Source: Deltaproteobacteria bacterium | GTDB lineage: Bacteria > Desulfobacterota > WTBG01 > CAIYCZ01 > CAIRTM01 | Direction: 5' to 3' | Assembly: GCA_016932595.1 (NCBI GenBank) | Contig: JAFGCP010000082.1 | Coordinates: 1 to 37,959 of the forward strand | DNA: 37,959 nt | Part shown: positions 24,723-26,650 of the stretch, piece after piece | Numbering within the stretch: the first letter of the stretch is position 1 | Layout: the number at the start of each line of letters is the position of its first letter | Notes under the pieces: generated by a model | Database searches by the model: none | Told to the model about the DNA's origin: nothing | What the model saw: the letters and a program-made list of their open reading frames with translations, nothing else | Translations under genes and position numbers: made by a program

Positions 24723-24883
24723 TACTCCTTTCAGCGGGAGCGCACTATAAGCGGTGAACTCTGGGCCGATGAGATGTATTGTTTAATAATTTTTAATCTT
24801 GTGCAGCAGCATGCAGGGCATAGTGTATTGAATTATACTCATATACGCCGAGGAAGTAAAACATAATTGTTGGATATTTAGGG

Positions 24884-24911
24884 TTGACTTTGTGAAAACC
24901 TGAGCTACAAA
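24884..24911 (+). promoter_or_regulatory. Candidate promoter TTGACT-N16-TACAAA for the 24935-26497 operon
   Basis: -35 at 24884-24889, -10 at 24906-24911, 24 bp before the first ATG. Confidence 0.5.
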
Positions 24912-24934
24912 ATGAAAATGAGAGTTGAAGCCAT

Positions 24935-25174
24935 ATGCAGAACAAGGACTATTCAAAACTTGACCTGAGCCATATACGAATCAGCCTTGTCCTCAAGTGC
25001 ATGATTGCGGTGTGGTCGTTCTGCATCGCCATTACCAGCGAGACGCATGCCTCGGCGGTCTTCTACCTTGTCATCTGCATTTTGTTTGCTGGCCTTTTTG
25101 TCTTCCAGCTGAGCTTTTATAATGAGCTGAAAAAAAGCAGGAGGGACAGTCTTGACGACCTGCACCGGAGTTGA
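24935..25174 (+). CDS. Small two-TM membrane protein
   Basis: 79-aa ORF with two hydrophobic helices; overlaps the next CDS. Confidence 0.65.
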   Translation: MQNKDYSKLDLSHIRISLVLKCMIAVWSFCIAITSETHASAVFYLVICILFAGLFVFQLSFYNELKKSRRDSLDDLHRS

Positions 25175-26039
25175 CCCCAGAGCATTTTTTAAAAGAGTTG
25201 TTTTCTCAGGTGCGGCGATAGCCTGCCTGTTCATTGCAGGAGGAGCCATGCAGCAAAAATGCGCCAGCTATCCGAAACTTGACCGGTTTGAGGTTCTCCA
25301 GTATCTGTTTCATCCGAGAAAGGAGCCTCCGTCAGAGCCCATGCAGGGCGCTGTGGATTATGCCATTGCCGTGGATACGGATGCCGTTATCGTCTGCAGG
25401 TTTTATCCTGCAGGATCCCGGGCGCCGGCCATACTTTTTTTTCATGGCAATGGCGAAACGGTTGAAGAGTATGCAGAGATCGCCGCGATGTATAATCGTC
25501 TCGGCATCAGCCTGCTTGCCGTTGAGTACCGGGGCTATGGCCGCAGCACCGGAAAGCCTGCTGCAAGCTCAATGATCAGCGATGCGCACAGGATTTTTAC
25601 CGAAGTCAGGAAATGGCGCATGCAGCAGAAACATGGAGGCCCCCTCTTTGTCATGGGCCGCTCGCTCGGAAGCGCCCCGGCCATCGAGCTTGCTGCCCGC
25701 TATGAGGCGGAGCTTGCGGGCCTCATCATCGAGAGCGGCTTTGCCTATACCGAGCCCCTGCTGAGGTTTCTTGGCGTTGACACGAAGGGCCTGGGTATCA
25801 CCGAGGCCGACTGCTTCGGGAATTTCGAGAAAATCAAGGAATTTAAAAAACCGCTGCTCGTTATCCATGCACAGCTCGATCAGTTCATTCCTGTATCGGA
25901 TGCGGAAACGCTTATGAAAAACTGCCCCTCCCGGCGAAAACAGCTGCAGGTGATTCCCCGGGCCGATCATAATTCCATTCTGGGTTTTGCGGGCTCAGAC
26001 TATTTCAGATTTATTAAACAGTTCATTGATGGGCAGTAG
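25152..26039 (+). CDS. Alpha/beta hydrolase with N-terminal membrane anchor (TTG start)
   Basis: FFHGNGETVEEY, nucleophile elbow GRSLGS, Asp in QLDQFIPV, His in ADHNSIL; AGGAGGG Shine-Dalgarno 6 nt before the TTG. Confidence 0.9.
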   Translation: MTTCTGVDPRAFFKRVVFSGAAIACLFIAGGAMQQKCASYPKLDRFEVLQYLFHPRKEPPSEPMQGAVDYAIAVDTDAVIVCRFYPAGSRAPAILFFHGNGETVEEYAEIAAMYNRLGISLLAVEYRGYGRSTGKPAASSMISDAHRIFTEVRKWRMQQKHGGPLFVMGRSLGSAPAIELAARYEAELAGLIIESGFAYTEPLLRFLGVDTKGLGITEADCFGNFEKIKEFKKPLLVIHAQLDQFIPVSDAETLMKNCPSRRKQLQVIPRADHNSILGFAGSDYFRFIKQFIDGQ

Positions 26040-26041
26040 CC

Positions 26042-26497
26042 ATGCAGCCCTGCGCGGACCGTATCAGCACGTTTTGTCCGGCTGTACCTGGCGAGCCCCG
26101 CCGCAGCAGGGAAACTCCGGCACAAACCCCGGGCGAAATCGACGAAGAGGCCTGCCGGTATGATGAAGAGGGGAAGGAGCCGTACTGGGAGGAAAAAATT
26201 CTCTGCCGGCAGTGCATGCAGGTAATAACCAGCCCGGCAGAGCGCATCGAGGTTAAGGGCTCACACCGCCATACATTCTCAAATCCCCTGGGCCTTCTTT
26301 TTCAGATCGGCTGTTTCAAGCGCGTAAAAGGCTGTGTTGATGCAAGCCCGCCTGAGGCCGAGTGGAGCTGGTTCCAGGGGTATGTCTGGCAGGTCGTGCT
26401 GTGCAGCGCATGCGCCACCCACATGGGCTGGCGCTACACAGGGCCGCAGGAGTGTTTTTACGGCCTCATCCTCGACAGGCTCATGCAGGCAAGCTGA
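26042..26497 (+). CDS. CULT-domain (cereblon thalidomide-binding-like) protein
   Basis: C55xxC58 and C121xxC124; HTFSNPLGLLFQIGCF; SWFQGYVWQVVLCSACATHMGWRY with Trp spacing of 6 and 14 as in human CRBN W380/W386/W400. Confidence 0.88.
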   Translation: MQPCADRISTFCPAVPGEPRRSRETPAQTPGEIDEEACRYDEEGKEPYWEEKILCRQCMQVITSPAERIEVKGSHRHTFSNPLGLLFQIGCFKRVKGCVDASPPEAEWSWFQGYVWQVVLCSACATHMGWRYTGPQECFYGLILDRLMQAS

Positions 26498-26507
26498 AAA
26501 TGAGAGA

Positions 26508-26535
26508 AGAATTCAGAAGCCGGAATCCAGGAGCC
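26508..26535 (+). repeat. Heptanucleotide repeat tract
   Basis: AGAATTC AGAAGCC GGAATCC AGGAGCC. Confidence 0.7.
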
Positions 26536-26617
26536 AAAACAAAAGGCATATAGTCATTCAAGGGTTTGCTTGTTTCTTTCCCCTGAGCTGATCCTGAAAC
26601 GTTTTTTCTCTTTTTCA

Positions 26618-26650
26618 TTCTGAATCCCGACTTCTGGATCCTGGCTTCTG
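26618..26650 (-). repeat. Heptanucleotide repeat tract, inverted orientation
   Basis: Minus strand: CAGAAGC CAGGATC CAGAAGT CGGGATT CAGAA. Confidence 0.7.

Follow-up and report, generated by a model that had tools for sequence, protein, structure and literature searches.

A lipase-like serine hydrolase gene directly precedes a cereblon-type CULT gene in three bacterial genera

Targeted protein degradation uses the ligand-binding domain of cereblon more than any other handle, and we know of no established role for its bacterial relatives. The closest described of these is MsCI4 (MGR_0879) of Magnetospirillum gryphiswaldense (PDB 4V2Y), a stand-alone CULT protein with two CxxC pairs and a cage of three tryptophans plus a tyrosine, which binds uracil/uridine and thalidomide (PMC4287342). 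Human cereblon recognises C-terminal cyclic imides (PMC11974815; PMC12117711). A hydrolase neighbour of CULT has no mention in the MsCI4 paper (PMC4287342), and our literature search found no gene-neighbourhood analysis of bacterial CULT. Here we analyse computationally a CULT gene that lies directly behind an alpha/beta-hydrolase gene in a bacterium of sulfate-reducer type. The window, by which we mean the whole stretch of DNA analysed, spans 37,959 nt and is contig C146 of a draft genome that amounts to 3.87 Mb at 76% completeness. A simple script based on codons served for gene calling, and the genomes compared are mostly draft assemblies in partial samples. Genera are labelled g1, which holds the window and its sister species G001, to g9.

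The CULT protein of the window closely resembles MsCI4. A phmmer search matches it to the M. gryphiswaldense CULT structures at E 7e-24 and to cereblon at ~1e-8 to 1e-10. Identity to MsCI4 is ~40% with the same fold, and the window protein differs from it in a longer, variable N-terminal tail and in its position behind the hydrolase. The zinc CxxC pairs (C55/C58 and C121/C124) are invariant in 12 relatives; in the cage, W110, W116 and W130, equivalent to W79, W85 and W99 of MsCI4, are invariant and Y132 is nearly so. Both the CxxC pairs and the cage tryptophans are present in all complete CULT proteins that we collected. The AF2 model has pLDDT 87-97 in the domain blocks and low confidence over the first 50 residues, and with this beta-tent fold the best Foldseek matches are all MsCI4, followed by human CRBN. 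Sequence match, residues and fold bear out the CULT assignment made in the original prediction. The thalidomide-binding domain of human cereblon has the fold and cage in common with the window protein, at ~28% identity, whereas the window protein comes without the LON domain, the DDB1-binding part and a ubiquitin system. It has neither a hydrophobic segment nor a signal peptide, and by analogy with known CULT biology its cage most likely binds cyclic imides or uracil-like rings.

The three tandem genes first proposed for the locus, together with their junctions, agree with the ORF coordinates (Table 1). The hydrolase, read from a TTG, overlaps the 79-aa ORF by 23 nt, and its TAG lies 2 nt before the CULT ATG. 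That ATG is not conserved in G001, whose CULT starts slightly further downstream, and the end of 26535 given originally for the operon lies beyond the CULT stop at 26497. All three are real genes, since dN/dS relative to G001 is low throughout: 0.06 in the small ORF outside its overlap, 0.20 in the hydrolase and 0.16-0.26 in CULT (0.16 in its core). Upstream of the trio lies a divergent PpiC/SurA-type gene, and 188 nt downstream of CULT in the window is a gene for GDPD (glycerophosphodiester phosphodiesterase). No CULT gene was found on plasmids. A role in phage defence was rejected, as none of the three proteins has a PADLOC match.

The promoter proposed for this operon, TTGACT (24884-24889) followed after 16 nt by TACAAA (24906-24911), is present, but taken as a pattern it does not rise above chance (3 sites found against 1.8 expected), and we rejected the motif as independent evidence. 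Its candidate -10 box is weak (TACAAA / TAAAAG). The candidate nevertheless gains weight because the surrounding block is conserved with G001: positions 24856-24876 and TTGACTTTG-GAAAACCTGAGCTA are conserved, while the remaining intergenic region has diverged. At the other end, opposed copies of a dispersed intergenic repeat sit between CULT and the GDPD gene and likely mark the 3' boundary of the operon. This repeat is 7-nt-periodic (AGAAGYC/AGAATYC units) and has 53 matches in the draft genome against 0 for a reversed-pattern control. The opposed copies came from the dispersed-repeat search; a repeat finder returned no inverted repeat after CULT.

Table 1. Coordinates of features in the window and of related loci in other genomes.
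Feature	Locus	Coordinates	Strand	Basis
Conserved upstream block with candidate promoter	window	24856..24911	+	near-identical in G001; pattern alone at chance level
Small two-hydrophobic-segment protein, 79 aa (family member)	window	24935..25174	+	dN/dS 0.06-0.10 vs G001; murJ-adjacent homologues in five genera
Alpha/beta hydrolase, 295 aa	window	25152..26039	+	Pfam Hydrolase_4, E 1e-24; orthologues in g1, g2, g4, g8; AF2 model resembles MAGL structures
CULT protein, 151 aa	window	26042..26497	+	phmmer to 4v2y and others; alignment; AF2 + Foldseek
Opposed copies of dispersed 7-nt-periodic intergenic repeat	window	26515..26649	.	53 genome copies vs 0 in control
Small-protein family member	L088	1763-1999		
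Small-protein family member	L089	4199-4426		
Small-protein family member	L090	256-492		
Small-protein family member	L091	6265-6489		
Small-protein family member	L092	6699-6914		
CULT-Lon-BFN locus	L078	7244-11081		
CULT-Lon-BFN locus	L080	6945-10419		
CULT-Lon-BFN locus	L114	3414-6712		
CULT-Lon-BFN locus	L115	1918-5569	-	
CULT-Lon-BFN locus	L116	4929-8408	-	

The small membrane protein had been counted as a part of the module. Its two hydrophobic segments are as predicted and it is under strong purifying selection, but its homologues in five other genera (g2, g4, g5, g8 and g9; genomes G002, G004, G005, G009 and G010) adjoin murJ, not CULT. In G001, murJ is at a different place from the trio, and small gene, hydrolase and CULT occur together only in the two g1 species. 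Because of the murJ linkage in five genera we rejected the small protein as a functional part; its gene is probably a recent arrival in the g1 operon and not part of the core unit. Searches of Pfam, NCBIfam and PHROGs gave no match for the window's protein. It belongs to an undescribed family of ~75-aa proteins that share the two hydrophobic segments as well as invariant K, S, E and Y residues and are usually encoded close to murJ, the gene for the lipid II flippase.

The hydrolase belongs to Hydrolase_4, and its predicted catalytic residues Ser171, Asp243 and His273 (nucleophile motif GRSLG) are invariant in five orthologues. The nearest solved structures, both by sequence and by Foldseek with an AF2 model of pLDDT 75, are monoglyceride lipases and small or feruloyl-type esterases. 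It has the alpha/beta core, GxSxG, Asp and His in common with MAGLs and Hydrolase_4 esterases such as human MGLL, M. tuberculosis Rv0183 and the T. thermohydrosulfuricus lipase, at 15-22% identity, and differs from them by an N-terminal hydrophobic extension in this genus. These likenesses point to an enzyme of the monoacylglycerol-lipase/esterase type, which is more likely to be an ordinary acyl esterase than an imide opener. The original prediction had the hydrolase opening or releasing the cyclic imides, esters or amides that CULT recognises, in a damage-recognition or salvage module. Alpha/beta hydrolases as a superfamily are able to act on amides and lactones, and the adjacency to CULT is conserved in three genera; yet this hydrolase matched only alpha/beta-hydrolase families and no cyclic amidohydrolase or imidase family. 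In addition, enzyme and CULT are predicted to occupy compartments that likely differ in this genus, and C-terminal imides hydrolyse anyway, their half-life being ~1 day (PMC11974815). We consider ring opening by this enzyme very improbable.

The description of the hydrolase as membrane-anchored likely holds for this genus but not beyond it. An alternative start, ATG 25248, has its own AGGAGG; orthologues in g2, g4 and g8 start at or near its equivalent and have no N-terminal hydrophobic segment, and most of 20 phylum-wide relatives likewise start there. An anchor as a trait of the hydrolase family was rejected on the position of these starts. The longer form is nonetheless likely in g1, because G001 has an ATG in the column of TTG 25152 and retains the hydrophobic N-terminus. 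Selection on the N-terminal extension is weak (across 24 codons, dN/dS is ~0.48 in this frame and 1.9 and 0.9 in the other two), and we take the anchor as likely real in this genus and confined to it. There the N-terminus carries K/R residues and then one hydrophobic segment, from which we infer that the catalytic domain may be periplasmic or exported, across the membrane from CULT.

CULT is encoded in 10 of the 11 genomes of the order and in 39 of the 395 of the phylum. The hydrolase gene directly precedes it in the window and G001 (g1), in G004 (g4) and in G002 (g2), with gaps of 2, 10 (~50 with a better start), 19 and 5 nt, respectively, in keeping with the tight coupling first noted at this locus. 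In g1, the pair is flanked by PpiC and GDPD, whereas in g2 and g4 it adjoins divergent galE and radical-SAM genes (both named by eye). These different flanks indicate that the pair was kept across contexts or was lost piecemeal from an ancestral pair. The original prediction would have failed without conserved adjacency in related genomes; hydrolase and CULT pass this check, recurring together in three genera and two flanking contexts, but the small gene, which joins them in g1 only, does not. Elsewhere, CULT occurs without this hydrolase in five genera: in g5, where it sits beside the same galE, in g3, where its neighbour is that radical-SAM gene, and in g6, g7 and g9. A second family carries the hydrolase apart from CULT; the orthologue in g8, 59% identical, is unlinked. 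Among ~43 CULT loci inspected none outside the window's family has this hydrolase as a neighbour. Our phylogenies, which are small and weakly supported, suggest that the pair-bearing genera are not one clade: either an ancestral pair was lost in places or the linkage arose repeatedly.

Such a distribution leaves a substantial chance, somewhat short of even, that the two genes are incidental neighbours, one chance arrangement having been inherited with only a transcript in common. The hydrolase family is found in 111 of the 395 phylum genomes (cut-off 1e-60), and at 20 loci elsewhere nothing recurs beside it beyond close relatives. CULT, for its part, has varied neighbours elsewhere, and the linkage is missing in most genera of the order. 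A purely incidental arrangement fits less well with a pair that three genera keep at a spacing of 2-50 nt though both flanks differ, or with the enrichment of the hydrolase in CULT-positive genomes (21/39 against 90/356; OR 3.4, Fisher p 5e-4, not corrected for phylogeny).

The g1 flank raises another reading, that of a lipid-turnover locus in which a lysophospholipase/monoglyceride-lipase-like esterase is combined with the downstream GDPD and CULT is a passenger. In both g1 species, GDPD lies behind CULT and is read in the same direction, and the fold of the hydrolase is MAGL-like. However, the GDPD gene is 120-188 nt away, with the opposed repeat copies between in the window, and g2 and g4 retain CULT at loci that lack it. 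We judge this reading improbable.

We give about an even chance to a lineage-specific operon with a two-gene core, in which a serine esterase and a cytosolic CULT reader have separate roles. In most relatives the hydrolase would be a soluble, lipase-like serine esterase, and in this genus one that is exported or held by an N-terminal anchor; its gene would be co-transcribed and co-inherited with that of the stand-alone CULT protein. CULT would read a damage mark or ligand, its cage binding either uracil-like rings or cyclic imides, the latter as aspartimide or glutarimide at the C-terminus of a damaged protein. The esterase would carry out separate acyl-ester or thioester hydrolysis within the same expression programme, leaving the ring bound by CULT untouched, and the small membrane protein would have joined the operon recently. 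From the gene arrangement, a functional link between esterase and CULT is plausible. We count this explanation as weaker because of the five genera with CULT but without this hydrolase, the unlinked g8 hydrolase and the differing predicted compartments.

A different CULT neighbourhood was found in another class. Here, in five genomes of three families, a second CULT subtype has as neighbours the genes of a LonC/LonB-type protease (AAA_32, LonC_helical, Lon_C) and of a BFN-domain protein. Three of these genomes have CULT ahead of Lon, at 13, 87 and 444 nt, and in the other two it follows the Lon-BFN pair, at 121 and 266 nt. This neighbourhood suggests that bacterial CULT may serve proteolysis. 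More specifically, CULT could be a degron reader that feeds damaged proteins, marked by a cyclic imide, to an ATP-dependent protease; at the present locus the protease would be encoded elsewhere and the esterase would be accessory. The two gene orders speak for such a role, as does the Lon subtype in all eight genomes with the second CULT subtype (identity at least 61%, the count covering CULT-bearing genomes only); G049 and G450, of the same class and with canonical CULT, have only a 44% Lon paralogue. The second subtype is also closer to human cereblon (~52-63 bits, against 37-45 for the window CULT; roughly 58 against 40), and at L075 an ATE-type transferase gene lies right beside CULT. On the other hand, the window CULT is of the other subtype, and the Lon subtype is missing from all six genomes of the window's family. 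Degron reading is therefore, to us, a somewhat unlikely account of the present locus. The CULT-Lon lead merits separate study because cereblon itself joins a LON domain to CULT.

Other CULT neighbours were seen as well. At L075:7020-8363, the gene that CULT directly abuts is for an ATE_N/ATE_C aminoacyl-tRNA-protein transferase, an N-degron enzyme by family, and the same contig carries a more distant LonC-type gene, ~6.6 kb off. At L064, L065 and L074 (family f19), CULT lies in conserved order behind a CobA/HemD-like uroporphyrinogen gene (by eye). UROD, a heme-pathway enzyme, is a reported substrate of human cereblon (PMC11974815). At L024 (g7), the gene directly upstream of CULT, on the opposite strand and diverging from it, encodes an alpha/beta hydrolase distinct from the one studied here (324 aa, apparently secreted; by eye).

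The hydrolase-CULT pair offers a first genetic handle on the role of the cereblon domain in bacteria, and an enzyme neighbour in one lineage together with a Lon-type protease neighbour in another provides specific candidate partners. CULT proteins may be readers of cyclic-imide damage that feed proteins to dedicated systems, a Lon-type protease in one lineage and an esterase-coupled route in that of the window, a reading that we regard as unlikely. If this is true, the LON and CULT architecture of cereblon echoes an older bacterial partnership; and if bacterial CULT is a degron reader, the purpose of cyclic-imide recognition would become testable in simple organisms.
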